Below, in pieces: positions 2,693 to 37,996 of a DNA stretch of 38,202 nucleotides. Made by a program: the position numbers and the translations under genes. The notes beneath the pieces are model-generated. The model saw only the letters and a list, made by a program, of their open reading frames with translations, did no database searches and was not told where the DNA came from. Every line of letters begins with the position of its first letter. The stretch's first letter is position 1. The stretch lies in the NCBI RefSeq assembly GCF_000485595.1, contig NW_014577337.1, positions 248,891 through 287,092 of the forward strand, given 5' to 3'. Source of the stretch: Priapulus caudatus. Taxonomy: Eukaryota > Priapulida > Priapulimorpha > Priapulimorphida > Priapulidae.

Positions 2693-4154
2693 CATGTTCT
2701 GGTAGTAGAGTCGGACACTTTGGTTATGCATACATGTTGTTACTTGTGTACGATAAGTCTGTAGTACTGATTACGACCTTGAGCGCTGATAACGCATATC
2801 TATCATTCTCGAGAACCATACCTCTGGGATATAAACGGCAACTTGATAAAGGATGCGACGAAATGAACTGTCTTGGCCTACAAGCCAGAGAACTATCATT
2901 ATGCATCGACCTTATGGAGGTGCACGTCGTCTACAGATGCCTTTCTTTTATTCCTTTTGATCTTATGGGACTCCATGATAAGATCTATATTCAGACTGTC
3001 CAGGGGACAGAGGATCGTCCATTTCTGTCATTTCCATAGAGGTATTCAGAACAGTTGTAGTACCTGCGTTTGGATTTCGATCCCTGATAATTTGAGAGCT
3101 GCCATATTCAAAACTATTCCTCTTTCTCGTCAGAATGTCTGCCTTTCTTTTGCACGCTGCTCATTTCAAAAGTACCTGTGACCTCTGTCTGGAGCTAGTG
3201 GAAAGTAAACATTCTCTAACGACCCTTTCAGATTTGTGATGATGATTTGTTCTCCATTAGTTGTTGTTTCAGTTTTCCTTCTGTTACTTGCTTCTACTCA
3301 TCATCTCATCTATAGATAAGGATTCCATCCTTTCAGCAAAGTTAAGGTCAGAGGATATGGGCATTCATTCATTGTCATCCAGTATATGCCCCACAGTTTC
3401 TGAAGGGGACTTCTGCTCTCCTGATCATTCTGGAGGCCTCCCTTTTCTGGAGTAGATTCATTTCTTTGGCGGGACTGCCCCCTCTAGAACGGATGTGCAC
3501 ATCATGTTGATACTTTGCCTCAGCTGATACCAGATCACTCTTAGTTTGGTATACGAAGTAAGACTATCTACCCAGTCATCTCGCTGTCTTTGGCACAGGT
3601 ACAATGCTGTCAGATGGTCTGGAAGAGTTTCAAACACAGCCTAAAACTTTTCGACGTGTTTTGGTTGTTCCTAGTCTCATCCTATATGTTATCAGGCACA
3701 TACGACAGTCTGTTTTTATATCAAACAAACCGAGATTTTTGAGTCTGAGAATCACAGATCTGTCTTCTCACAGGATTTGATGCGTTTTTAGGCTGTAGTT
3801 TCTTCGTTTCAGAGATTCGAGAGATAGTTTTGGAATAGTTTTTGAACAGTCTCGATGAGACATTGTAGGGACATTTTCAGCCTCTTCTAGATGCTAATGT
3901 AGGTTTGTTCTTGTCAACTTATAGCTTGAGGCAGACGCAGTGTAAGATCTGACCGTTATTTCACCAATCATTTGAGAAGTTTTGTTGTTAGCAAAAGATT
4001 GTTTTTTACAAACATACAATCTTTGATGCATCATAAGTCGCTGCCTTGGAAAAATTAATTTGTATAAAAGCACAACTAAAAGGAATGCACTAGATTATAA
4101 CGAATTAGAGTTAAAAGGATGTACACGACGACTGACAGGACAACAATAATGTGT

Positions 4155-4365
4155 ACACCAGCTAGGTGGGTGTAACGTTCAAGGGAATAGAGAACATGAG
4201 ATCCAATAAAAACAATGTATTTAGATCAAGTGCTGAGCGGGGTAGACGTTTATGGTTAGCGTTACGCATTAGGGTTAGGGTTAAGCGTCATGAGGTAATT
4301 AGCCAAGCACATTGCTTTTTAGTTGGACCCATTTCTCTATCTTGGGCCGGGTAACCTACATAAAA
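4155..4365. mobile_element. Foldback MITE with telomere-like core, left copy
   Basis: The left end gggtgtaacgttcaaggg followed by atagagaacatgag is repeated in inverted form at 4327-4362 (cccatttctctatcttgggcc). The core contains attagggttagggtt. The matching element in the right arm (20795-20982) shows much cleaner inverted ends. Only a short spurious open frame is present. Confidence 0.65.
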
Positions 4366-4874
4366 CTTGCATTGATCATGCTTTATGGACCTGCCCCAGT
4401 AATAGTAATGATAAGTGATTAATAATACTTCTTAACCTGTTATGGCACTATATATTTAGCTTGTTTTACACTAGAATCTACGTGGCCGCTCTGACCTGCA
4501 TCAGCCCGTAACAATCTGTTTCACTAACATGTTGCTATCGTGCACATCATGACGCTCACCACAATTGTAGGCTATGACAGTTGGCATGTATTTGTTAACA
4601 TCACAAACGTGGAGGTACCGACTGATTATCTTTCTTAAAACAGCCTTCCTATGTCAATAATGTACTGTAGGATTAGGCCTGTCATGTTATGTACCAGGGG
4701 AATATTGCTTGACCTAAAATTTCACATTTTTTTTTTTATTTTTGTAGTGGTTTTTGACAGTTAGCTCCAGTGGAATTTTCTTGGCTGTTATGATCATGTG
4801 ATAAACAGATGATTTTAAAGAACTTGGTGTAAAAATCAAATCACTATAACATTTTTTTCTCTTTTTAATACCTT

Positions 4875-6735
4875 AAGCCTCCTGGACTAAGTATGCTGCC
4901 ACTTGATAAACGGCCGTTATGCAATGTTGCAGGAAGAGATGCCTCTGTACGGGGATGTTTTTCCAATGAATCTTTTGACTCCCAGTGCGAACAGAATGCT
5001 TTACTGGCTCTCGTTCCCAGTGCCAGTCAAACGCTCTGCTAACAGCCATACTGCTGAACCTTTTGGATGGTTTGCAGGTTGATCTCGATACCGACCTGTA
5101 GCACTGGTGTTGTTGACCAGACGGACAGAAGCGATTACTGTTCAGTCGATAAACCGTGCTGGTCCACACGTCCCAGCACGCTATTCTCTCCTGCGTCCAG
5201 AGAATTGATGAAACAGTGTCACACCAGTGAAGCTGTGCAATAGTGGAAGAGCCGAATGACTTTTGCTGCGCCGAGATTGATGAAATGGTCTATGGGTCCG
5301 ATGTGTACCGGAATGTTTCTGCTGCAAAAGTGCGATTCCACGTTCTTCGATGTGTAGGGGGTTGACTACTGCCACTGCAAGTACTACACATCGAGTGTCC
5401 ACTGCTTACGAAGTTCGGACTTTGTTGTATCCTTGAGTACGCGAATCAGCACGTAGCACATCATCGCGAGGTGTCTGCCCCTATGGGTGCATGGTTCGGC
5501 TTGAACGTGTCCTTGTCGACTCGTGTGCGCATTTCAACCTCATCGAATGTGACACTTAGTCTCCTTTCCATCTGGTAGGTGTTTCCCTCTCCAATGTGAA
5601 CAGGCCAATAAGTTTGAATGAGCTAGCTCTCCCTTGTTCGTATGACTTTACAGGAATGACGACCAGCTGGTTTGAAGCTGGTGTAGTCTTCGTAACCGTC
5701 TACGTTCTCCGAGATCTCTGGCCTTTCCCCTTGGTGCCCTGTTTCAGACTGTTATGACGGTACTTGATCCCACACTCAGTCAATGGCCGCTTCACTTTCT
5801 TCAGACGCGCGTCGGCATGTAGGGCATGAACCACACGCTCTGCGTGTCGTTTGAAGTTGGTCCTGACATCTTTAGGTGGGAGTAAAGTGTACAATGGCAG
5901 CACCATCCAACCTGCAGCATCTGACCACGTGGATGCACAATCGCGGACTACACGATCAGGTAAAAATTTGTTGCCTGAGGGCCAAACCCTCAAGTCTGAC
6001 TTTGTGAGTGTCGCAGGCCTTTCCATGTCTTAGAGTGTGGTTGGGTAGGCCTGGTCTTTGATGGGCAAAGAATTCGATTAGATTTGCCGCTGCGTGGACT
6101 GACAATGATATGATATAATCTTCGTGGAACAGAGCACAGTTTGCCTTGAGAGAGGCCCCCTGAGGCCTGCCTGCTTACCTGTTGTCTGTGTCTTCTTTGG
6201 TGCTGCTCCGAATTAGTGAGATGTGTTCTTCGATATCTGTGCCAGTCAGTGGTTTCTTACACATGACAAGGTCTCCTGTACAAATGTGTCATTATTGTTT
6301 TTGACCAAATGGCTTTGTGACAGTTTGTATGGTGTGAATCACTGCGAGGCCTATCACAATTTTCCTCTGTGTTCAGGTTGTGATTTAGCCTATTTACATC
6401 ATCAGATAGAATGGGTTGTATGCCCTTGTAGCTACTTCAGTCCAGCATGACATACATTTTTCCGAACTCTGGCTTGTAACCTCTCGACTGTGTCTATGAA
6501 TGTCTTCTCCGTCTGGCTTATCACGTTGTTACGCAATTCCGTTTACCAGTCTGGTAATTTCGGGGCCCAGCATTCATTCAACCGAAATAAGGGCCAGCTG
6601 GATTTTTCGGTCAGACCCACGGCCCTTCCATCTCCGGTGATGGTTCAATTCAGCTGTTCGTGGATTTTTGATCCAATGCCATTGATAGAAGGCATGTCCG
6701 TTTTTTGCACTGCGAAATGACCTTGTGGAGACTTA
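4875..6735 (-). pseudogene. Gene A relic, left copy (uncharacterised family, 3' half)
   Basis: This minus-strand counterpart of the gene at 18450-20311 is recognisable from matching islands. The segment 5181-5402 carries VVLAVAVVNPLHIEE and LPLLHSFTG, and 5700-6026 carries SDLRVWPSGN followed by VLPLYTLLPPKDVRTNF and HAERVVHALHADARLKKVKR. The segment 4873-5169 covers the C-terminal end. Multiple frameshifts and stops separate the islands, and 5403-5700 needs several frame changes. It lies upstream (on its own strand) of the gene B relic, the same order as in the right arm. Not functional. Confidence 0.8.
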
Positions 6736-23222: not shown

Positions 23223-25457
23223 CATGCATGGATAAATAGATAGTTCGATTTTTTGGGGTATTTTCATTTCAACCAAGCGGTCACCAACTGAGGAACGCCA
23301 CCGATTTCCCCGGGCAACGCCGGGTATCCCGCTAGTATAAAAATATAAACATAATACTAAACAACCTAAAACTACCTCGAGTACATATCTGTGGTACCTG
23401 ATACGACAACGACCCCATCTGCCTTAGTAGCATGGGTTTCTCTGATGATTACAAGGAAGTACTGCAGCTACATTCATCAATTATGTCAACTGACACACCA
23501 TCATACAATTTGGATGGTTTCTCACAGTTTGTGTTTGATAACGCAGATGTTAATACTGCCACCATTTCTGGTCACAATACCTTCCATGCAATGGGTGGTA
23601 TAGCATGTGTAACACCAGCTGGCGACCCAAAAGGTATTACCTTAGAACGACCTACAAACCTACCTAAGGCTGCAGTAGTTGGCAACTTTGGAAAAATTCC
23701 TATAAAGCCTTACAAGAAACCAACCAAGATTGGCCTAAGCTATGTCACCCTGAACTCTCTGCAGGAGATTGACATTAGTCTTCCAAGTCAACAACTGGCA
23801 ATGTCTCTCGACCTCTTGTGGATGAGAAACTTTTCAGTCCAGGACACATGTCCCTCTTGGAGTGGATTTATGCAGACTGCAGTGAGAGGTAATAACCACG
23901 AGAAAACAAGGATTGAAATCCTTCCATTCATCAATCTGGATCCGTCAAATCCAAGTACCATATATACTGCCTTGTCTTTCGCTAAAAAGCAATGTGAGCT
24001 CCATGGTATCAAGACTTGCTTCGTTACCTTTGACCAGCCTTTATATATCAAGGCAGCTGAAATTGTTGCAGCATCTGCAGATCTACCTAATGTCATAGTT
24101 AGATTAGGAGGTTTCCATCGTCTCATGTCTTATCTCGGGTCAATCGGATATATCATGGGAGGCAGTGGACTAGAAACACTCTGGAAAACAGTTTATGCAG
24201 CTGGAACAGTGATACATACGATGACTGGACACGCTTATGCTAGGGCTGCCAGAGCTCATTTCCTGACTGTCAGAGCTGCATTGTTTTCCCTACTACTCAC
24301 AGAATAGGACACTGAAGATCAGAGACAGCAACTGAGATCTTTAACTGAACGCCTTCTGGATGGCGAATGTTCCACTGATAATCTTCTCAGTGATGCTGCC
24401 CTCCAGGACTTTGTGACACTACAACAAACCTCATGGATGAGAAGAAACTGAAAAGTCCTACAGGAAGATTATGGATCAGCTACCTCGAACAAGTATCCAT
24501 TATGAAGATGTTCCTCTTTGCTGAACGTACCGGTGATTGGACATTACAGTTGCAGGTCATCAGGAGAATGATTCCATACTTCCATGCTGCTGGGCACTTG
24601 GCATATGCCAAGTCTGCTAGACTATATCTTCAACAAATGGAGTCACTAGAACCAAATATGACTGAAACTGAGTACAAGCAATTCACAGAGAGTGGCTACT
24701 GTACTGTAAGAAGACAAGATCGGTTTTGGAGTGGAAACTTCACAGACTAAACTATTGAACCAAACCTCATGCGACTGATGGAAACCTCTGGAGGCATGAC
24801 ACGAGGGCGTGGGATCACTGAGAGTACAATCACTAAGTGGATCCATGCATTCCCACACTGCATTCCTATCTGTGAAGCTTTTGAAAGGTTTGCAAGCATC
24901 CATACAACATCATCTGAACAGCATAAAGACCTACGACCAAGCTCTCAAGTTCAAGATCACAAAGCCTTTGCTACTTTTCTGCTATGGTTAGAGGCACATT
25001 CTCCTTTCACATGCTCAAATGAGACATCAGTAATTGCTGTTTCAACAGGTCTCGTGGCTGATGCATCTGTAAACTGCGACAAAGCCTACGAAGTTGGTAA
25101 TGCTGCTGCATCTGCAGTAGATGGTAAAACATTCTCTGATGTGAAGCTGAAACGCAATGACAGAGTCAAAACTATAAGTGGAAGTAAAAATACAGTGAAG
25201 ATCCGTGGTCAATCTGTAGTCGTCAACCCCACATTGCTGTTCAACAGAATAACCTGTGTTATGAAGAGCAGTTCAGAGATGGAGAACTATTTGGCTTATG
25301 AACTGGCACCACAGCCAACATCCCTATTTCATAAAGGGTTGATGAGGAAAACGACAAAGAGTGTGCTTGGCCAGCTGCTGAAGTCGAAAGTGAAACCAGA
25401 GACAGTTTCCAGAAGAAAGCATCTTTGTAGTAGATGGAGGCTACTTTCTTCGTGCTG

Positions 25458-25960
25458 TTGTGTGTTTGGGGTGTCAGTGTGGGCAGATAGGCCACATGGC
25501 TCGTGATTGCGCAGTCCGTCGAAATCAGCAACAGGGAAACCTGAGAGGCGGACGAGCCTAAATAGGACGAATGCTCTTCCAAAACCCACAGATTTCCCCT
25601 ATATATTAGCATCCCGCGCACTAACTGCTAATAGTGCGCTGGGTTGTAATGTAGAGAGAGGGTAGGCGTGTTAACGCGCTTATTGATACTGGCGCGGATA
25701 TCTCGTTACTAGATGCGAGACAATGGCGTGCAATCTCACTTTCGCGGCTCACGACAGTAGTTAATACACAATTTCCTACACCACTGTCGGCTAGTGGGCA
25801 TTATTTATCCGTTTTGGGAGCGATTAGACTCTCGCTTGTAATAGCAGGACGGAAATATTTTGTTGTTTTTCATGTAGTGGCTGAGTTACCTAGACAGTGT
25901 GTATTAGGAGTAGATTTTTTGCTAAGCAGCATCGGTGTATACTACACTTCTTAGAATCAA
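25458..25960 (+). pseudogene. Ty3/gypsy-like gag zinc knuckle and protease fragment
   Basis: Directly after gene B, the frame continues as CLGCQCGQIGHMARDC, a CCHC knuckle with slightly irregular first spacing, ending at TAA 25559. A protease domain follows at about 25665-25952: LIDTGADISLLDA with the catalytic DTGA, then CVLGVDFLL near the end. It ends at a stop near 25951. There is no LTR between gene B and this fragment, so the element is 5'-truncated or was joined by recombination. Retroelement proteases of this kind cleave the Gag-Pol polyprotein in particles. Confidence 0.8.
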
Positions 25961-26012: not shown

Positions 26013-27531
26013 ATGCAGTCTCATATAAATACGGAAAATAGTCGACCGATTCGTACAAAACCATATCATCTATCAGCAGCACAATCACAAATAGTACAAT
26101 CAAAGATTGACGAACTGTTAGCAGCAGGAATAACAGAGGCGTCTCAATCTCCGTGGGCGGCAGGCGTCTTGTTAGTGCCTAAGAAGAATGGAGATTAGAG
26201 GATGTGTGTTGATTTTTGTCGATTAAACGCCATTACGGTTAAGGATAATCACCCACTCCCATAAATAGACGACGTGTTGCACTAGCTGTGTGGAGCGCAT
26301 GTGTTTTCTACCTTAGATTTGCGGTCGGAATATCATCAATTACCCATTGCGCCGCAAGTTAGACATAAGGCTAGCTTTGTTACTATGGAGGGACAATGGT
26401 CTTATTGTTCTCTGCCATTTGGATTATGCAACGGGCCTTCTGCGTTTCAGAGACGTATTCATTCCGTGCTGCAGGGATTTGTAGGTAAATTTGTCATTGT
26501 ATATATTGATGATATCGTTGTCCATAGCGTCGATTTCGATTCACACATTACACATTTGTTGCAGGTCTTCACGAGGTTACAATCTGCTAATTTGAAATTG
26601 AAACTTACAAAATGTTGTTTCCTTCGAAAATCTATCCAATTTCTAGGCCATGTAATAGATAGCACCGGAATTACATCCGATCCGGGGAAGACTCATGCCA
26701 TACTCGATTTACAGCCTCCCACGACGCCTACGAATGTTAGACGCTTCCTTGCGCAAAGTGGTTATTATCGTAAGTTTATACGTGGCTATGCTGCCATTGC
26801 TCGCCCTCTCACGCTGCTTACTGGTAAATCAACGTTTACTTGGTCATCAGAAGAACAGAAGGCGTTTGAGATGCTTAAATCTGCTCCGATTCTAGCTTTA
26901 GCCTCACCCGACCGAGACTTTTCTTTGTATTGTGATGCTTCAACTCATACAATAGCTTCTGTTTTGACGCAGATTGCAGAGGATGGTGAGGAGCATGTCA
27001 TTTTATATCTTAGTAAACAGTTAGTTGGAGCGCAACTACAATGGGCCATTGTTGAGAAAGAGGCTTACGCAGTTGTTTATTCACTAATACGATTGCAACA
27101 CTTTCTAACTAAGTCGCCGGATGATAATTTACGTTAACCATAAACCTCTCCGTTTTCTACTAACAGCTAAAACATTAACTAACGCCCACTTGCAGAGACG
27201 GGCAGTAGTTTTATCCGAGTATGATCTGCATATAGAGTACACAGAGGGCAAGTACAATGTCCGGGCTGACGCTCTCAGTCGGCTGCCCACAAACCCAGCT
27301 CAGGAGTCTAACCACGAGAGTGCATGTGTGGGAGATGCATGTTTAGCGATCGAGGCGGTCCCAGCTAGAAATCAGGTCAATGACCCGGAGCATGCTATTA
27401 ATACCGACCCACCGTCTTGCGCGCCCTCGGGTGTTACAAATCGAGCGGAATTTCGTAACTTGCAAAGACAAGACGTTGAACTGGCCAGTATTATTAATGT
27501 CTTGGCCCAACCGCATGTGTCATTGCGCTAA
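26013..27531 (+). pseudogene. Ty3/gypsy-like reverse transcriptase and RNase H
   Basis: The RT fingers motif EASQSPWAAGVLLVPKKNGD (about 26139-26195) is followed by three in-frame stops (TAG 26196, TAA 26262, TAG 26283). The palm then runs open from 26301: FSTLDLRSEYHQLPI, LPFGLCNGPSAFQR and the catalytic YIDD at 26502-26513. The connection has FLGHVIDSTGI and FLAQSGYYRKFI. RNase H has LYCDASTH and ILYLSKQL. A frameshift near 27115 moves the frame to 27121-27531, which carries VNHKPLRFL and the tether-end motif RADALSRLP. All catalytic residues that I can check are present, but the stops make it inactive. Confidence 0.93.
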
Positions 27532-27599
27532 ATTTAATTGATAGAGGCATATTATGAGGATATACATTGTAATTGACCTCCACTACTAACCCCCCCTTT

Positions 27600-28187
27600 C
27601 ACAAGTCGTTATTCCGCGGTCGTTAGTAAAGGCTGTTATGTATGCATGTCACTCATCGCTGCATGCTGCGCACCTTGAGTTTGATAAGACATACCGTAAA
27701 ATAGCGGATCGATATTTATGGCCACGCATGTATCAGCAAATTCATAGGTATGTTAAAAAATGTGTGCCGTGTAATTCTAGGAAGTTATGTAAAGTTAATG
27801 CTCCACTGCATGCAGCCCCTTTGCCGACAGCGGTGAATGAGACAGTGAGCATAGATGTTGTTGGCCCATTGCCAATGTGAGGAAGGGTATAGGTATATAG
27901 TAACATTTGTAGATCTCTACTCCTCGTACCCAGAATGGTATTGCACTACTAATAAATCGTCGGCGACAATTGCTAATCTGATTCTTAATTCCTATATCCC
28001 AGCACATGGCTGCCCACTTCGTTTTCTTACAGACCGAGGGTTAGAATTTTGAATTTTAAAACTCGTTAATGAATCGAATTTCAGAAGTCTTTCGCATACA
28101 TCATGTGACTACAGCGCCATTTCATCCAGCAGTATGCGAACGGTTTCACAAAACGATGAATTCGATGTTAGCATGCCTAGTAACAGA
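27600..28187 (+). pseudogene. Ty3/gypsy-like integrase, truncated
   Basis: The zinc-binding HHCC region is visible at 27638-27800 (HSSLHAAH ... CVPCNSRK). The catalytic core begins with the first Asp in SIDVVGPLP (about 27850). A frameshift near 27880 precedes FVDLYSSYPEW and the second Asp in FLTDRG (about 28030). A further shift brings TAPFHPAVCERF with the expected Glu, then a stop near 28187. The sequence breaks into an unrelated repeat at 28189, with no chromodomain, 3' LTR or polypurine tract. Confidence 0.88.
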
Positions 28188-28188
28188 A

Positions 28189-28445
28189 TGAGTGTCAATG
28201 ACACTGTAGCTTACCACAAAAAAAGACACAAATGAGTGAGTGAGAAGTCAGTTTTAATTGAGCAACCATCGACGTACATTATAGAAACAAAGAGTATATA
28301 TGGGAGAACTCCCATTATATACTCTTGATAATTATGTGTAATTTTTTATGTGAAAATAAATGTTTGAGATGTGAAAGTCTGAGATGTGTGCGAGTGATGG
28401 CATTACACCTAAATGATCGCCATTTAACGTTTTTATAATATTCAG
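28189..28445. repeat. Dispersed repeat, copy 1 (unsplit)
   Basis: Begins gtgtcaatgacactgtagct, has the palindromic block gggagaactcccattatata near 28301-28320, and ends around acacctaaatgatcgccatt. The second copy, split by an insertion, is 28766-28855 plus 30084-30215. It starts right where the gypsy integrase is cut off. Confidence 0.8.
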
Positions 28446-28765
28446 ATTTAGGCACTGCCTAAAAGACAAACATCTTTCAAGACAACACTCTGATGTACTG
28501 TGCTGCTGGTCCACATAATTAATATAGGGAAACCTGACAATGTTACACTAGGGGCCATAATGTTGCTTTTTTCTCAGATAACTTCACAGAGGTGGCAGTT
28601 ACAAGGAAAATTGGAAAAGCATGTGAAAATCCGTTCTTGCCTGATGTCAAGGTCAGCGAATAAAGCAACATTGAAGTGAATAATAATACGGTTACAACAA
28701 AAATATTTTATGCAAATCATGTAAGCAGAAGATATTGATTGCTCTCGTATGATTTTAAAGATGAA
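28446..28765. other. Non-coding sequence between the two repeat copies
   Basis: AT-rich, without a supported frame or repeat. Confidence 0.5.
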
Positions 28766-30215
28766 AGTGTCAATGACACTGTAGCTCACCTTGGGTGTGA
28801 TAGAAGAGGGAGGGGGATATATAAAGCAAGAGTATATATGGGAGAACTCCCATTAGGCCAAACCAAAAAATACCTTTGGTTCAGGTCACATGGATTGTGA
28901 AAATTAGGGTAGGTAGGTAGGCATAACATGATTATTATGTTTTTTTTCCTGCAAAAACATGGGTAGGCAGGAATATAATTTTTCCCTTCACAAGTTAAAT
29001 ATATGGTATACAGCTTGAAATGCAGGAGCCACGAGATGCAAATGACTTGCAGTTGCATGTACCATTGCTGCAAGTCATGCCATTGTTTTTATGACAGCCA
29101 AAAAAGACAGAGGACAAAAAATGTAAACTTCACAAGGAATGGAAAGGGTAGCCAAGTCCCAAGTCTGGGAAAAATGAGGGCTACCATTATAGTCTTTCTT
29201 CAGGACAGAAGATTCAGGAATGCCAATTTGAATCCCACAACCTGATATGGTGTAATCTTGGTGTCATCTGGAATCAGAGATTGCGAAGGAGAGGACGAGA
29301 CTCGTTTGTCAAGACCTGCCAAACCAAAAACACTAGATCCCCAAAATTGTGGACTGGCAGATCCAGAAGAGCAGGAACAATAAATACATGGACACAGACA
29401 AAATTCTAAATCTGAAAATACTCTGTGGATATTGTGTATTCTCTTGATGAACATCCATACATAGTACTACATGGACATTTTCAAATGTGTAAACTTTCTT
29501 TCTGTAGGGCATCTCATTTCAATACATTTTTATTAGGGGTGTAACGATGCATCAAACTATCAATAACTATCAATATTTTTTGTCTTGATGGCAATGCATC
29601 GATGGTAAAGTGAAACACGATATTTATCGCCGATAGTATACTAAACAATCGATATTTTTCGATTGTTGCAAAATGTGAACACCTGGATAGTAGTGTTAGG
29701 AATCGCTCCAAAAACGGAGTTCGATTAATCGTCCCTTTGAACGAGCGAGTAACCGAAGTGTAAACGGCTCTGCGGCCGCTTATCGCACGGTAGCATGCGT
29801 ATACTATATAGCTGGCGATCGATCGCGTACATCAAAGCCGGCCGCCGCGCCATACGACCTTCAGGCTCTGTTTATGAAGTAGCCGAGGCTCTATACAACT
29901 GTTTCACGCTGTTAAAAATATTTTAGAACTCTTTTTAGGTAAATAAAATGACAAGAGTGGGATATTTGAATATGTATGATCGGCAGGCGGTATCTTTAAA
30001 TTATATTTTTTCTTGCACCCCTCTGAAAGTGACCGCAGTCGGGCGGGTGACCCAAACCAAAGGTAATTTTTGGGCTGGCCTTATATAGCATATCTCCCGT
30101 TATATACTCTTGATAATGATATATGCATAAGTTTTGATGTGAAATTAAATGTTTCAGATCTGAAAGACGAGAGATGGCGCTACACCTAAATAATCGGCAT
30201 TTTGGTTTTCGAATA
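28766..30215. repeat. Dispersed repeat, copy 2, split by a Harbinger-like element
   Basis: 28766-28855 matches copy 1 from gtgtcaatgacactgtagct to ggagaactcccatta. 30081-30215 resumes with ttatatactcttgataatga and acacctaaataatcggcatt. A 17-nt extra segment is present at the rejoin. Non-coding. Confidence 0.8.
28856..30080. mobile_element. 1225-bp PIF/Harbinger-like non-autonomous element with TTA target duplication
   Basis: The left end ggccaaaccaaaaaatacct (extending ttggttcaggtcac) is the inverted partner of the right end gtgacccaaaccaaaggtaa (extending tttttgggctggcc), about 35 bp each. TTA flanks both sides (28853-28855 and 30081-30083). The host repeat is known uninterrupted at 28189-28445, giving a near empty site for comparison. 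No transposase is encoded. Internally 29536-29660 holds a ggggtgtaacgatgcatc block typical of hAT-element ends, possibly a nested remnant. Confidence 0.85.
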
Positions 30216-30359
30216 TCACGCAAATAAAAACAATAAAATATTCCAGTCAAATTACTGTAACGAAGAATCTAAAACACAATATTACACGTATATAGGTATG
30301 ATTGTAGAGTTGTTAACCAGTTAAACGAAATAAGCTTAATAGAACGTTGTCATCTCTCC

Positions 30360-31010
30360 CATAGGAGTAACAACTGTTTTGGAGCTAGCCTTACACATTC
30401 ATATTATATACCAAAATTTAACAAAATCGAATGAATCTAGATAGCCATTTTCATTTTTGCCAAAAAGTGGGCGTGGCTCGAAAGTAGGTCGACTAGCGTG
30501 CTCCAAAATAGAACGTTCAAATCTCTCCCATAGGAGGAACAACTGTATGCAATTTGAAACATGTGAGTCAAACGGTTCTTGAGTTATCGTTGACCGTAGG
30601 CAAACACTGAAATGCATAGTGAAATTGCCAAAATCTACCTAATTTGCATAATTTAAAAAAAATATCAAAACCTGTGTGATATGTTTTGGGGCCAGTCGTC
30701 ATTCATTCACATACCAGAAATGAACAAAATCCCTTGAACCTGAACTGACTTATGGCCATTTCCATTTTTGCCAAAAAGGGGACGTGGCTCGAAAGTAGGT
30801 CGACTGGCGTGCTCCAAAATAAGACGTTCAAACCTCTCCCATAGGAGTAACGACTATATGCAATTTGAAACATGTGGGTCAAACGGTTCTTGAGTTATCG
30901 TTGGCCGTAGCCAAATGTGGACGGAAGGACGAACGGACGTACGACGGACGACACCCCATGGCAATAGCTCATCTTGACGATGTCACATGTTTCAAAATGA
31001 TTTAAATTAC
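30360..31010. repeat. Dispersed repeat with two diverged direct units of about 310 bp
   Basis: Unit 1 (about 30425-30600) and unit 2 (about 30735-30915) share tttgccaaaaagtgggcgtg-type, ctcgaaagtaggtcgact and gtcaaacggttcttgagtta segments. The downstream gacggaaggacgaacggacg and catggcaatagctcatcttg motifs are, from memory, common in dispersed repeats of marine invertebrates. Non-coding. Confidence 0.8.
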
Positions 31011-31954
31011 ACAGTTAAGTGGCTTCCTGAGACGCACGCACCCACGCACGTATGCTACTAATATATAGAGTAGGGATTGCCTAAAAGAGGAGAAGAAAGA
31101 AATGTTTCAACTGGTAACGAGTCGGGATACCGTTATGTTGTAAATTCCCAAACTCCACGACAGATGGCGCTCTCGCTCTGGCTCAATTCTACCACTGCCA
31201 CAAGCTGATTTCCGTAAGAATTTCTTACGCTTTTTTATTATAAGTTTTACAGCGACCCCGTTACTCCTGTCCTATGTAATACGGTGTGTACTTATAAGAA
31301 AAGCTGCAAAGATAATAAAAGTCGGACCATTATTTCATGAGAAATTTGATAAAATAGTGATACGAAATAGTGCGCCCATTTACTACTTTCAAATCAGTAC
31401 GCTGTTTACTAAAGTAAGTTCACGTATTTATCATGAATTTTCGGGATGCTTGCCAATATACCTAATTCTCGAACATTGTCTTTGATACATTTTTGCGTAT
31501 TCAGCTTAAAACATCTAAATTTGTCCACCAACAAACATGCAAATCATAGAAATTTCTAATGTTTTGTTCAGCGGCGACTTCGCGGCCGTTGGCTTGCCAT
31601 TTGCTAAATTTCCCCGGAGCTCCGCCCACTTTAAAAATAGTGCTAGCTTTGTGGCAGTGGTATATCCTGAGTGTGGGAAGGGGGCGCTGCATGCAGTTTC
31701 GTAAATTCCATCAGAAATTCCCATCCTCAAGAAAATTATCAGTATACTGAATTTCGTGTAGGAGCTGTGTCTGCTATTCGGCAACAGACTTTTGATTAAC
31801 AATATACGTTTAATTAACATTCAAGGTTCCTTTAACTAGCGTATTATATTCAGGAAACAATTTTAACAATGCCTCTTAAGAAATGTCGGCATGTACTCCA
31901 AAAAATGGCAGCCCAACATCCCTGAGATAATGTATGAAGCCTGCGAACTCCTCC
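31011..31954. other. Non-coding sequence
   Basis: No supported gene. Small frames on both strands around 31501-31820 overlap each other and match nothing I know. Confidence 0.5.
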
Positions 31955-32290
31955 CTATAGGAGTTGGTGGTGATGAATTTGGTGCATGTAATGGAGAACC
32001 ACAGCAGTCACCAGATCACGTGTCACACATACATCACACAGCACACAGGTCGCACTGATATGATTTCTCTCCCGTGTGAGTTCCCGTGTGTGTCCCTTCA
32101 CGTAACTTGACTTCGAGAAGTCAGCATCATACAGATCACACTTATTCGGTTGCTCTCCCGTATGAGTTCTCATGTGTTTCTTCACACTACTTAGAAAGGA
32201 GAAGGAAGCATCACACAGATTACACTTATACGGTTTCTCTCCCGTATGAGTTCTCATGTGTTTCTTCACATTATTCATTATTCAAATGCC
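31955..32290 (-). pseudogene. C2H2 zinc-finger protein fragment
   Basis: The minus strand reads the tail of one finger (VKKHMRTHTGEKPYKC), a complete finger CNLCDASFSFLSSVKKHMRTH, the canonical linker TGEQPNK, and then a degenerate finger with CDLY in place of CxxC. Further fingers dissolve after a frameshift. Such KRAB-less C2H2 arrays bind DNA in the nucleus. It has neither start context nor effector domain, so it is a fragment of an expanded zinc-finger family, inserted or left behind. Confidence 0.85.
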
Positions 32291-32499
32291 TATCACTCTA
32301 ACTGGTACATCATACACTACAAAACAGTATCATACATCATATAACAGATACATTTTTTGCAGTTACAGTAACATATGTTGTATACCTGTGTTACATGGAA
32401 CATTATATATCAAAATAACTGATGAAAAAAATGTTTAAAAGACATTACAATGGTACAGCGAAAAATAATGCATCAAAATGTGATAATGGCCAGATAACC

Positions 32500-32700
32500 T
32501 GTCACACTGTACTTCCAGTGCTCGAAATAAGCGTTGTCCGGTTGTCCGAGACAACCGGAATTTGCGCCGGACAACCTAACCAATCTGAGACATTGTCCGG
32601 TAGACAACCAAGAAACCCTATCCCTAACCCTAACACTAACTCTAAACCGACTCGGCTATCTTATATATGCGTGGTACCCAATTAATCTAATAACATAGGT
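32500..32700. repeat. Small repeat with GTTGTCCGG inverted motifs and telomere-like patch
   Basis: 32516-32615 contains cagtgctcgaaataagcg (a start resembling hAT-type MITEs) and inverted gttgtccgg / ccggacaac motifs. It is followed by ccctatccctaaccctaaca and aaccgactcggctatctta, which recurs at 9623-9680. No coding role. Confidence 0.6.
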
Positions 32701-32711
32701 ACCTGGGTACT

Positions 32712-32758
32712 GGGACACATAGGTACCGGGACACATAGGTACCGGGATACATAGGTAT
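32712..32758. repeat. 16-bp tandem repeat, three copies
   Basis: gggacacataggtacc occurs at 32712 and 32728, with a diverged third copy at 32744. Each unit holds the palindrome ggtacc. Confidence 0.9.
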
Positions 32759-33276
32759 GGACCTGGGGCAGATTACGTTAGTAAACACTTAAACAGTGAG
32801 CTGTAGTCAGGTCAGGTAGACTTTCGTCAATAGGTACCGCTATGATTTATTAGTTGTAGTAATTTGTTTAGTTTGTTAGCTAGTTAGTTATTTGTGTAGT
32901 AGTTATAGTTGTAAAGGGTAGAGTACGTGAGCTACGCTACTCAGTGGCATTGGCTAGAGTGCAAATGTGCATGAACAGTAAGCCTACTGCGCTATACTGT
33001 ACTAGCGTTGCTGCCGATAGCAACCACATCTGATTGCCATTCGCTTTCCTGTGCTATGATGAAGACCCAATTAATACATGAGCAAGTCTATATATTCTTT
33101 AAATTTATATTAGTACTTGTACTGGCCTGGTCGACAAATATTTAAGCCCATTATGCCTAGTCAGATTCCTTGTCTTTGCGTCATGTGAAGGCAAGTGACG
33201 TGATCTGCGAAGCATGCAAAGATCGTGACCGCTGATATAATTCCTCTTCGTACAGATGCACGCACGCACACACACA

Positions 33277-33278: not shown

Positions 33279-33323
<45 letters not shown>
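33279..33323. repeat. (AT)n microsatellite
   Basis: An uninterrupted AT run of about 22 units, directly abutting the viral polymerase-like sequence. Confidence 0.98.
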
Positions 33324-33326
<3 letters not shown>

Positions 33327-34153
33327 GTACAGCAGCGTGGTCCACGAGGGGTTTTAACATGTAAGGCCGACAAGTTTGAGTTGACAACGAGAACTTTGAA
33401 GGGCAGTTGAATGCAGACAAGAGACGCTTTATTGACGGAGATCACACTCTGCGGTATATCACCGCTATGGCTAAGTATGAACGGAAAGTGAGTAGTGAAG
33501 CAGCGGTGAGACCTAAACCAAGGGTGATGCAGTATGCCCTAATTCCAGTGCGTGTGAACATGCTACGTGTTGTAGGGAAACTGTGGTCATTTGTCCTGTC
33601 AAATCATGACGCACTTCCATTTATGGCACCGCCATATGGACAGTTAGGTATGGGGCGTTATATTGAATCATTTTGGAGTGAACTAAAACACCCGGCAGCA
33701 GCCACAGACGATGTGTCTAGATGGGACGTGCGAATGGGTGCACCATACCTGACGTTGGAATGCGAAATGTTGTGTAGTCTCATACCTAATGAAATACTCT
33801 TCCTAGAGGAATATTATTCCATGTGGATTGATGGAGTAATTCTCACATCAGATGGACATATTTTCATTACTGATGGACAGAGAGGGAGAGGTATGTATCC
33901 AACATACTTTGGCAACTCAGTTTGCAACGCAGTCCAGATGGGAGTCAGGGCAGAGAAATCAGGAGTTTGTAGCATAGAAGATTTCCTTGATGGAAAAGTG
34001 CTCACTTCTTTAGTTTCTGGAGATGACTCGCTCGTGGGAGGAGAAATCGATAAAATTTTACAGTATGCGAATGAAACCATACACAGTAAAGAAAGTGGAT
34101 TCATCAGGAAAGGTGTTGGTGAAGCGGAACCTTCAACAGTGTGTAAGATATAG
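33327..34153 (+). pseudogene. Endogenous RNA-virus RNA-dependent RNA polymerase fragment
   Basis: The main frame is open for 248 codons (33407-34153) and has no ATG at its start. Similar-looking coding sequence continues upstream to about 33327 in a different frame, so at least one frameshift lies near 33400. Polymerase landmarks in order: a basic KPRV motif-F-like segment (codons 37-40), motif A as DDVSRWD (codons 101-107, 33707-33727), motif B as a glycine-rich segment (G157) leading to N170 and N174, and motif C as SGDD (codons 204-207, GDD at 34019-34027). A motif D/E-like region with K235 follows. GDD plus this A/B pattern is typical of positive-strand RNA viruses and differs from the YxDD of reverse transcriptases nearby. 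I lean towards a tombus/noda/sobemo-like lineage, weakly. The N-terminal fingers and all other viral genes are absent. Confidence 0.8.
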
Positions 34154-34169
34154 ATTTCTGCTCTCATCA

Positions 34170-34968
34170 GTATCGGAAAGTTAGTCGGAAACAAGTCTCT
34201 GTTCTTGCCAGTACGAGACTCAAGACGGATAATGGACACAATATATTGAGACTTGAGTCTAAGTAGGCCAAGTGATCCAATAGATAGACTCGATCTACTG
34301 AGCGGCACTGCAACCAGTATGCTCCTTCTATATCCACATTATCCATGGGTTCGGGCTCTAGCATTGGGAATTTTGAGGGCTCACAGTTCCACAAGGAGTG
34401 AGACATGGAGTAAGATGGATCGAGAGTTGAGGCGGACCAAAGGGAGCTTGGGAGAAAGCCTTTGGAGTAGAAATCGTTGACTATGCTCAGATTGGATATG
34501 ACAAGATGCTTCGAATTGTCCTGATGTCTTTCCCAGCAACCACCCATGTGACTTGAATGTGGGGAATTCAGAATGAACCGACACTGGTTGGTTTCCAGAA
34601 ATTTCTTCAACTCTTCATCCTTGATCTCTCTGAGCTCTCTATCTGCTCCCACAAAGTTCGAACCTTGATCACATATCATTGTCTGTATGGGACCTCTCAA
34701 AGCTATGAAACAATGCAGACCGTTGATGAACGCATCTGTCGTCATGTCGTCCAACAACTCAACATGAATCGCTCTAGAAGACATGCAAGTGATGATTAGG
34801 CCATACTTCATCAGTTCACGCCTGCCTTCCCTCACAATAAAAGGACCAAAACAGTCATGAGCACAATGCGTAAATGGCTAGATTGCCTCTAGTCTCTCAA
34901 TGGGGAGATCGGCCATTTTCTGCTTCAATGGTTGACCTCTAAGTCTTCTACATGTTATACATCGAAAA
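34170..34968 (-). pseudogene. BEL/Pao-type integrase fragment
   Basis: On the minus strand the zinc-binding end CRRLRGQPLKQKMADLP (about 34950-34900) is followed by an in-frame stop near 34880. The catalytic core then follows: HDCFGPF with the first Asp, YGLIITCMSSRAIHVELL, MICDQGSNFVGADRELRE with the second Asp, and PHSSHMGGCWERH with the Glu (near 34545-34585). After about 34540 the frame wavers and the C-terminal part towards 34170 is poorly preserved. It is the only minus-strand retroelement here and lies between the viral polymerase fragment and a plus-strand BEL/Pao piece. Integrases of this type insert cDNA with a D,D,E active site. Confidence 0.9.
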
Positions 34969-35032
34969 ATGCAGGAGGACACAGCTCCGCTGCATCCGAT
35001 CACCCAATGTATGTGTATGTGTTTTTCGTAAG

Positions 35033-36990
35033 CGGAGCAACTATTCAGTGAACAGTTGCAGAGACTTTATGAAGAAAGCGGCTTTGGAGAGAAGTGAATT
35101 AATTATGGCTAATGGATTGTGCTGCTCTTGTTTATTCCATGGGCATCTGTCTAGGGATTGTAAGGCCAAGCATAGCTGTGGTAAATGTGGTAAGATGCAC
35201 CCAATCTGTCTATGTGGTGACTTCGAGGCTTTGCACCCAAAGAAACTAACCGTAGAACAAGCTGCCGGGACAAGCATTTCATGTAGGGCTAAAACTACTG
35301 TGATATATCAAAGTCCCACATCCAGTATGATCGTTCTTGTTCTTGTCAGCTCCACAGGAAATCCAAGCGAAGAGATTCTTGTATATGCACTACTCGATAC
35401 GCAGAGTGATACGTCGTTCTATCTTGAGGAAACTTTAGACAAACTACAAACAGCAACAACACCCACCGTGCTACAACTGACTACCATGACCAACACTAGC
35501 AAAATAGACTCTACAAGGGCAGAAGGTCTGATGGTTAGGAGCATATGTTCACCTAACAAGCTACTCCTACAACGGTCTACAGTCGTGATAACATTCCTGC
35601 AAATTTAGAACACATTCCTACCAAGGAGGTTACTCAGAAGTGGCCTCATTTAGATTGTCTTGCCAGTAAAATACCAGCCAAACAGGATTGTGAAGTCGGA
35701 CTACTGATTGGTTACGATTACCCACAGGCACTCGCTCCCATAGAGGTAGTCAGAGGTAACGGGAACCAGCCCTTTGGAGTACTCACAGAGTTAGGATGGA
35801 GTATTGTTGGGAAAACTCATTGATCTGAAGATTCTGAACACTTGAATCACAGAGTTCTGACGAAGTCCATTCAAGAAGACTTACAGATACTGCAAGGTAA
35901 CTTTGTAGGAAGTGAAGTTGGCTTTGTATGTCAAGCAAAGGTTCGTGATGTATCCACACCCGAAATATTGAACATTCTCGAGTCTGATTTTCCAGAGAGA
36001 AAGGATAGTGACACTTGTGTCTCACAAGAAGACATCAAGTTGATTAAGACTATGAAAGATGGTATATGTCAAGACTCAGAAAAGTTCTACCAAATGCCTT
36101 TACCATTCAACAGTGACTCTCCTGTCCTGCCAGAAAGTTTGAGAATGGTGAAGAAGCGATTACGACATCTGAAAAGGAAATTAGAATCAAACGACAAGTA
36201 CTTGGCTGATTATAAGCAGTTCATGAACAACATTATTGAACACGGTAAAGCTGAAAAGTCCCATTAGAAGAAATAAGTGATGAGAAATCGTGGTGCATCC
36301 CACACCATGGGGTTTATCGCCAACGAAAACCGTAGAAGTTCAGAGTGGTATTTGACTCAGTATTGATTGACTTAGAGTAGTATTGAGTAGATTGACTTAG
36401 AGTGGTAGTGCTCAGAGCAGTGGGTCTTCTCTGAATGATGTATTACTTCAAGTACCGGCCTTATTAAACTCTCTAGTTGGGATCCTCTGTAGATTCCGTG
36501 AACGACCGTTTGCAATAGTCGGAGATATTGAAAGGATGTTCCACCAGTTTCGGGTAGATCCCAAAGAACGAAACTACCTTCGATTCTTATGGTGGAAAGA
36601 TGAACTTAGTGGTCGTGAGCCCACAGCTTACAGAATGTGCACTTGTTTGGTGCCAAAAGCTCACCAGATTGTGCTAACTATGGATTGAAAAAGCTTGCAG
36701 CAGATCACAAGAACAGTCTTACTAAGGCAGCAGATTTCGTCACAAACAATTTCTATGTAGATGATGGCCTGGATAGTTTTGCCACTGAGATAGAGGCAAC
36801 AAGTCTTGTTGGAGATTTGAGACAGCTGTGTGCAAAGGGTAAGCTCCATTTACACAAGTTTATGTCATATAAATCAGCTGTAAGCAGTGAACCTCAAGGC
36901 GTATTCTTCATTTCATAATCTACTACGGCGACTGAACTTGTCCAGGAAACCCCTGGGGCAGTTACAGTCAACGCCTGTGGACCGTCTTCA
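35033..36990 (+). pseudogene. BEL/Pao-type gag end, protease and reverse transcriptase
   Basis: Gag-end zinc knuckles CCSCLFHGHLSRDC and CGKCGKMHPICLC lie at 35118-35216. The protease has ALLDTQSDTSF (35388-35420), with DTQS at the catalytic site. A frameshift near 35590 leads to CEVGLLIGYDYPQALAP and TELGWSIVG, then TGA at 35821, SDFPERKDSD, QMPLPFNSDSPVLP and RLRHLKRKL. TAG at 36265 and a degraded segment (36270-36420) follow. The RT palm shows FAIVGDIERMFHQFRV (about 36509) and, after a frameshift near 36640, HLFGAKSSPDCANYGL and the catalytic YVDDG (36754-36768). Coding ends near 36920-36990. RNase H and the LTRs are missing. Many lesions; inactive. Confidence 0.92.
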
Positions 36991-37459: not shown

Positions 37460-37654
37460 AACTTCAAGTCGCATGGAGATGCCGACACTATCAGCCGAGC
37501 AATCACAGGCCTGATGAGCGAAAGGTTTGGGGAGGCATGGAAGCTTGTGGCCACCGTAACGGATGGAGCCTCTGTGATGATGAGAAAGAAGGCAGGCGTT
37601 GTTCAAAAACTGAAGGAGGCGATGCTGATGATTATGCAAGCTACAGAGATGTAA
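37460..37654 (+). pseudogene. hAT-type transposase fragment
   Basis: A 64-codon frame ending TAA at 37652. It reads SHGDADTISRAITGLM, then LVATVTDGASVMMRKKAGVV, the hAT core segment with the catalytic-region TDGA motif, and ends abruptly with MIMQATEM. It is a different lineage from the hAT relic at 8698-12301. An isolated exon-sized remnant. Confidence 0.65.
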
Positions 37655-37996
37655 CTGCCTTTCAAGAGAAGGCCTATGAAATGTTAATAAACCAAATGAT
37701 ATGTAAAAAAATCATGATCACTTTATTTGTTTTCTTATGATCCATATCAAAGTTAAGTATATTTTATACAATTGAAGGAGACCCCTTGTACCCTGGGGGA
37801 GACCCCCTGTACCCCCTAGCAGAAGGGGGGCTCCACCCTCTTACCCCACTTACCTCCTGGCAAATCACAATGCTCGTCGCTTTGCGCCTAGTAAGAGTCC
37901 TTCGGCAGGACTAGTAGAATCTTGAAAGGACTAGTACATTTTTGCTTTTACTAGTCCTGTGGACTAATAAACTAAAATGGTTAGTATCTAACCATG
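37655..37996. other. Non-coding sequence with short duplications
   Basis: ggagaccccttgtaccctgg and gagaccccctgtacccccta form a short direct duplication (37779-37820). ggactagta motifs recur at 37908-37965 in both orientations. No gene. Confidence 0.6.

Follow-up and report, generated by a model that had tools for sequence, protein, structure and literature searches.

Positive-strand RNA viruses are said to leave fossils only seldom, a statement made of vertebrates (PMC11089739). In the nematode Bursaphelenchus xylophilus a nodavirus-like endogenous viral element (EVE) was captured by a Bel/Pao LTR retrotransposon (PMC5177903), and the tick Ixodes ricinus carries an integrated jingmenvirus polymerase gene (PMC9501327). 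Flavivirid EVEs are described from a cnidarian and from fish, and those reported by Bamford et al. in 2022 include, according to the same two papers, a fish lineage (X2) that is sister to jingmenviruses (PMC9854234, PMC11089739). Jingmenviruses are described as segmented. Pestiviruses are described as having no methyltransferase (MTase) (PMC11410658).

The window, the whole 38,202-nucleotide stretch of the Priapulus caudatus genome analysed here (on contig C277 of our search set), contains a viral stretch at 33380-34494 that we call the window copy. This stretch is very probably an EVE, part of the polymerase gene of a positive-strand RNA virus related to flaviviruses that entered the germ line and then decayed. 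As in I. ricinus, the sequence is an NS5-like polymerase of a jingmenvirus-affine virus in an animal genome; unlike in the tick, there are seven groups of insertions, some with sequence from NS3-like to RdRp. Like the EVEs of Bamford et al., of which lineage X2 stands beside jingmenviruses, these are flavivirid fossils, although the host differs. The sister locus on contig C2016 resembles the B. xylophilus element as reported, in which positive-strand polymerase sequence and a primer binding site lie between two LTRs. However, that element is a nodavirus in a nematode with pol genes present, whereas the C2016 insertion is flavi-like and no pol gene was identified between its repeats. Among the literature matches listed there is no flavivirid record for this branch of hosts and no paper on priapulids, and an earlier report in Bamford et al. 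is possible.

The polymerase fragment in the window

An earlier note on this DNA had proposed an RNA-virus polymerase with motifs A, B and C and SGDD, in a 248-codon frame at 33407-34153 distinct from the YxDD of neighbouring retrotransposons. The frame is present in the open-frame list, where it starts with TTG at 33407 and its stop codon ends at 34153. The segments to which we assign the labels A, B and C (Table 1) occur in order and align with solved RdRps down to E 5.1e-10. The contrast with retrotransposons also holds, as a reverse-transcriptase frame starting at 26301 carries YIDD (26301-27137; RVT_1 5.6e-22). This frame is open over 278 codons, whereas the earlier note had described the elements nearby as full of stops.

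The best PDB matches of the window frame were 2cjq (5.1e-10) and 1s4f (1.4e-9), both of which we take to be NS5B of a bovine viral diarrhoea pestivirus, followed by 8wu3 (5.5e-8), Jingmen tick virus NSP1 (8wim, 3e-7) and classical swine fever virus NS5B (7ekj, 7.3e-7). Viral polymerases account for 16 of the 17 chains at E<=10, and the remaining chain is unrelated (E 0.57). A comparison with RdRp profiles, as the note had proposed, did return RdRP_3, at 17.8 bits and thus below its cut-off. The structure predicted from the single sequence has a pLDDT of 30.8. At the amino acid level the frame is 80% identical to the copies on C2016 and C1625, and over 148 residues it is 43% identical to P0001, a 459-aa protein from a 1,612-base NCBI contig. 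Within motif B the window copy has Arg (AGA, 33887-33889) at a position occupied by Ser in C2016, C1820, 2cjq, the jingmenvirus chains and P0001, and by Asn in C1625.

Table 1. Features of the window copy and its surroundings, and of the collinear set on C2016. Pfam cut-offs are 27 bits for RdRP_3 and Methyltransf_23, 25 for Flavi_NS5_thumb and 32.6 for rve.
Feature	Contig	Position	Strand	Basis or remark
(TA)n tract	window	33279..33324	.	directly left of viral stretch; from sequence
Open frame, RdRp fingers and palm, motifs A-C	window	33380..34150	+	257 codons stop to stop; PDB phmmer
Motif A, DDVSRWD	window	33707..33727	+	aligned with 2cjq and jingmenvirus chains
Motif B, GRGMYPTYFGNS	window	33884..33919	+	aligned with sister copies and PDB chains
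Motif C, SGDD	window	34016..34027	+	aligned with solved RdRps
Next RdRp piece, other frame, with FCSHQY (thumb start)	window	34147..34263	+	Flavi_NS5_thumb 14 bits, E 0.047, below cut-off
RdRp thumb piece	window	34250..34494	+	DNA identity to C2016 and C1625; thumb frame 34250-34477
Integrase fragment, cut off at viral junction	window	34495..34877	-	rve 28.7 bits, E 1.6e-6, below cut-off
NS3	C2016	26714-28450		part of collinear set 26714-32980
NS4-like frame	C2016	28973-30703		named from place only
MTase-like frame	C2016	30625-31440		
RdRp frame	C2016	31379-32980		PDB matches

The viral sequence does not end at 34153, as had been supposed: further viral homology, in other frames, reaches 34494. 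In DNA alignment with C1625 it extends from 34156, matches in 273 of 343 columns (80%), and stops at 34494; identity to C2016 is 74.8% over 34208-34321. The thumb piece has no Pfam match of its own, and its equivalent in C1625 reaches 21.9 bits with Flavi_NS5_thumb (E 1.8e-4), short of the cut-off. Relative to C2016, the end of the window copy has a 10-base gap, a 2-base gap, and the stops TAA and TGA in the C2016 frame. We infer that the window copy could not work as a polymerase.

The right edge of the viral stretch lies between 34494 and 34495, against an integrase fragment that we take to be of the BEL/Pao type. The sequence at 34495-34950 matches the genome in full only at its own position and, over a short part, on C502. 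The left edge is approximate, with DNA homology from 33392 and protein homology, judged by eye, from about 33380. To the left of 33392, no homology to the C1820 and C2016 copies was found in the 67 bases that follow the TA repeat; 449 and 421 of 500 shuffles reach the scores of their alignments. An early frameshift at 33327-33407, also part of the earlier description, is not supported and was rejected. No words of seven or more bases common to both edges were found in the window.

Three further observations concern the surroundings of the window copy. Its end at 34494 corresponds to about the same viral position as the start of the copy on C2436 (piece L032, 3728), which belongs to a different group, and this coincidence may be due to chance. 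A plus-strand frame at 34952-35608 is rich in Cys and His and resembles the gag/protease of a second retroelement fragment, with no Pfam match. Finally, a dispersed repeat downstream of viral copies is 87% identical between window 37621-37996 and C2016 (piece L012, 6315-6720).

Sister loci and insertion groups

Four viral query pieces (RdRp, NS4-like, MTase-like and NS3) were searched against the P. caudatus assembly (385,217,808 bases in 2,952 contigs), and the resulting counts are lower bounds. There were seven matches to the RdRp query (representing five loci), six to the NS4-like, eleven to the MTase-like and three to the NS3 query. Merged, they define at least ten loci on nine contigs: C277 (the window), C2016 (two loci), C1625, C1820, C1161, C678, C8, C165 and C2436. 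The identification of a polymerase fossil is borne out by the viral chains that dominate its PDB matches. Its integration is supported by these related loci and by two copies whose non-viral flanks were duplicated along with them; sister copies of this kind are inherited with the host genome. It is hardly credible that the locus arose by contamination, in which a viral contig was misjoined into a host scaffold. In favour of contamination, the locus is known from the assembly, with no recognised exogenous relative. However, the related loci are spread over nine contigs (one of 1.6 Mb), the copies carry lesions and were duplicated with non-viral flanks, and the C2016 insertion is bounded by repeats with matching TTGG.

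The order NS3, NS4-like, MTase-like, RdRp on C2016 is that of flaviviruses, present in pieces, while the window holds nothing upstream of RdRp. With the long C2016 RdRp frame, the jingmenvirus-type chains 8wim, 8wil, 8wu2 and 8wu3 are the best solved relatives (5e-27 to 3e-23). Two of these (8wu2 and 8wu3) are named only 'RNA polymerase' and are presumed to be jingmenviruses because they align alike. Individual matches include 8wu3 (5e-27), Jingmen tick virus (1.5e-23), 2cjq (7.6e-21) and tick-borne encephalitis virus (2.8e-7), and all 50 chains at E<=1 are, by name or by our assignment, flavivirid polymerases or polyproteins. As a measure of similarity and not of tree position, the best orthoflavivirus chain scores 32.7 bits versus 97.8 for 8wu3 and 77.4 for 2cjq. 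Pestivirus NS5B is the best match of the window fragment and follows the jingmenvirus chains for the long C2016 copy. Of the structures solved so far, those from jingmenviruses and pestiviruses appear closest to the RdRp, and orthoflavivirus NS5 does not appear to be the closest.

The NS3 piece on C1161 matches NS3 helicases from 1.6e-10 (5gvu, presumably a pestivirus NS3 helicase), including Zika NS3 (9.5e-7), as well as two bacterial HrpB chains (6e-4), among 53 chains listed; its Pfam match is DEAD at 36.1 bits. The NS4-like frame of C2016 has no Pfam family at E<=1 and one chance PDB chain at 1.1. The MTase-like frame matches NS5 methyltransferase chains weakly (12.8-12.9 bits, E 0.53-0.58). 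Its top chain, 8pjr (SAKe6AC-LB, 8e-8), is presumably a designed protein and was taken as a spurious repeat match, and an MTase-like profile returned only a de novo designed chain (E 0.39). Methyltransf_23 scores 15.9 and 15.8 bits on the MTase-like frames of two copies, below its cut-off.

Wider searches returned few relatives. In the protein database none was found with single-sequence queries and one with a profile. A scan of IMG/VR yielded no relatives of the viral copies, and the P0001 query retrieved one contig, which matches only the C-terminal tail of P0001. The P0001 record may be a chimera, since it is this C-terminal part that matches the IMG/VR contig.

In C1625 (piece L013, minus strand 5060-541) and C1820 (L014, 4164-6764) the RdRp comes first, followed by NS4/MTase, which gives these copies a head-to-tail or template-switched look. 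The breakpoints differ, and a common viral breakpoint was rejected for this reason. A frame of 2,241 codons on C8 was also rejected, as it spans a run of N. Downstream of the long C2016 copy is a PIF1-like helicase frame (L012 7768-8538; 20.9 bits, E 3e-4, below cut-off). A second dispersed repeat, also downstream of the copies, links C2016 (L012 6721-7374) with C1820 (L014 9203-9899) at 92% identity over 697 columns.

We compared the copies by the proportions of silent (pS) and replacement (pN) differences, leaving out codons that touch gaps or stops. In the RdRp region nine of ten pairs have pS of 0.646-0.826 and pN of 0.075-0.135. The tenth, C1820 with the left C2016 copy, has pS 0.030 and pN 0.038 over 93 codons, and the non-viral flanks of these two are common (98% over 436 columns, 95% over 618). 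This is the pattern of a segment that was duplicated in the host and evolves neutrally. For the MTase region, pS is 0.638-0.884 and pN 0.062-0.364 in 20 of 21 pairs, the lowest pS and highest pN coming from an overlap of 25 codons. The exception is C1625 with C8 (pS 0.054, pN 0.016), where eight differences are too few to make a call and the ratio is not neutral. Once C8 (97%) and C2436 (93%) are joined to their duplicate C1625, and the left C2016 copy to C1820, seven insertion groups remain. Six of them are told apart by the MTase test, and by the RdRp test the window is distinct from those three groups that have a comparable piece. The window copy and C1161, C678 or C165 may derive from the same virus strain.

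Saturation of silent sites between groups, with replacement sites still conserved, points to purifying selection during their divergence, for which replication as viruses is the simplest setting. Divergent viruses would thus have entered this genome repeatedly. That the host instead amplified a single ancient insertion is very unlikely. Duplicates do exist, in the C1625 and C1820 groups just described, and dispersed repeats lie downstream of groups (window with C2016, and C2016 with C1820). However, these repeats are about 0.7-3 kb from the viral edges, and a neutral process cannot give saturated silent sites together with conserved replacement sites.

The earlier note had attributed the intact frame to either recent insertion or selection. 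Neutral simulations (2,000 runs each, with two thirds transitions and an assumed 0.1 indels per substitution) left the 257-codon frame intact with P of 0.64, 0.39, 0.18, 0.075 and 0.01 at 0.5, 1, 2, 3 and 5% divergence, respectively. A young insertion therefore suffices (P 0.39 at 1%), and nothing shows host selection on the window copy. Over 217 codons, private changes (synonymous/non-synonymous) number 22/12 in the window, 21/20 in C2016, 18/20 in C1625 and 19/12 in C1820. By these counts the window copy does not appear to have decayed more than the others. This fits a young insertion and would also be compatible with constraint; we regard a young age as the probable reading. Retention by the host of a co-opted RdRp fragment, whether for its protein product or for antiviral small RNA made from it, is improbable. 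It would agree with the open frame, with the lower share of non-synonymous private changes (12 of 34, compared with 20 of 41 in C2016 and 20 of 38 in C1625), with long open frames in other copies (533 codons on C2016 and 630 on C1161), and with the pN/pS below 1 of C1625 and C8, which rests on eight differences. Against it stand the change from Ser to Arg in motif B and the damaged end of the window copy, with its two deletions and two stop codons. Moreover, evolution as a virus would already lead one to expect conservation between groups, and the duplicate pair of C1820 and left C2016 changes neutrally (pN/pS 0.038/0.030).

Other contigs carry viral or organellar sequences of separate interest. 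C991:60000-69900 (piece L015) contains an RdRP_3-type frame (276-1619, 190.8 bits), presumably tombus-like, and a parvovirus NS1-like frame (3881-5029, Parvo_NS1 38.3 bits). These viral fossils, about 2.3 kb apart, are unrelated to each other. C56:726285-726485 encodes a 99-aa RdRp fragment (RdRP_3 29.7 bits; classical swine fever virus NS5B, 5e-4) that is perhaps another flavivirid-like fossil outside the family of the window copy. C2952 is a mitochondrial genome of 14,919 bases with 10 internal TGA codons in COX1; at conserved sites AGA presumably encodes Ser and ATA Met. Read from the frames, the order nad2-cox1-cox2-atp6-cox3-nad3 is as in arthropods and the block nad1-cob-nad6-nad4L-nad4-nad5 is inverted. 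This arrangement and length probably correspond to those of P. caudatus and speak for a priapulid host. The mitochondrial gene order of P. caudatus is described as being among the candidates for the ground pattern of Ecdysozoa (PMC5856267).

Retrotransposon-like sequence at the viral junctions

The viral region on C2016 lies between direct 217-base repeats (25381-25597 and 32976-33192) that differ at two positions (99% identical), start with TGTGA and end with TCACA(T), with TTGG immediately outside both. In this they resemble two LTRs flanked by a target-site duplication of 4 bases, a structure not found in the window. We recognised no polypurine tract at this locus. The bases that separate the RdRp break from the right repeat are GGCCCCACGTTGGGCG, and the same 16 bases occur at the viral break of C1161; their complement contains CGCCCAACGTGGGGCC. 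Among 170,973 bases from 19 sources this word has two exact sites, and three in all at up to three mismatches, compared with an average of 0.0 in three rounds of shuffling. On the minus strand of both C2016 and C1161, an LTR ending in CA is followed after one or two bases by TGRCGCCCAACGTGGGGCC and then by antisense virus. We take TGRCGCCCAACGTGGGGCC to be a primer-binding-site-like motif.

With the exception of one motif site with three mismatches, neither the 16-base motif nor repeats similar to those of 217 bases (scanned in 18 sources) were found at the other loci covered, including the window. No long direct repeats were found around the C678, C165 and C1161 copies in the pieces scanned, and the left side of the C1161 copy is a run of N.

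An RNA virus has no DNA stage, so a DNA copy requires a reverse transcriptase. This part of the earlier proposal agrees with established knowledge, and the repeat pair and motif of C2016 and C1161 point to an LTR retrotransposon. A host reverse transcriptase would copy the viral RNA into DNA, which would enter a germ-line chromosome and then decay. The repeat pair at C2016, together with the motif shared with C1161, points to template switching during reverse transcription of an LTR retrotransposon, from retrotransposon cDNA to the viral plus-strand RNA. Such switching is likely, and its structural basis lies at these two loci. Plus-strand strong-stop DNA terminates after the primer-binding site has been copied. 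If it switched template at this point, it would leave the LTR end, the motif and antisense virus, in the order seen at C2016 and C1161. In the window, the retroelement strand reads integrase and then antisense virus, the same relative orientation, without the motif or repeats. For this locus template switching has somewhat less than an even chance, the integrase fragment at the junction being the only hint.

Significance of the insertions

At C2016 a flavivirid-type RdRp and, upstream of it, an NS3 helicase appear in one order. The segmented arrangement of jingmenviruses is not apparent there; instead, NS3-like, NS4-like, MTase-like and RdRp sequences are collinear over C2016:26714-32980, assuming that integration joined no segments. 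As judged from these sequences, the source lineage would be diverse and apparently unsegmented. It would differ from pestiviruses as described in that an MTase-like frame, identified by a weak match, precedes the RdRp.

A broader possibility, which we put forward tentatively and consider unlikely on present evidence, is that LTR retrotransposons in this genome repeatedly captured RNA of an unsegmented neighbour of jingmenviruses, switching right after the primer-binding site and carrying the virus in antisense. If true, this would be a recurrent and mechanistically legible route of endogenisation, the virus-carrying retrotransposons could be a source of antisense transcripts directed at the virus, and the gene order would show the unsegmented state behind the segmented jingmenviruses. 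With seven groups in one genome, a single virus clade is represented by a series of fossils. Junctions at the primer-binding-site-like motif would show the route of entry from RNA to DNA, and the collinear order is relevant to how segmentation arose in jingmenviruses.
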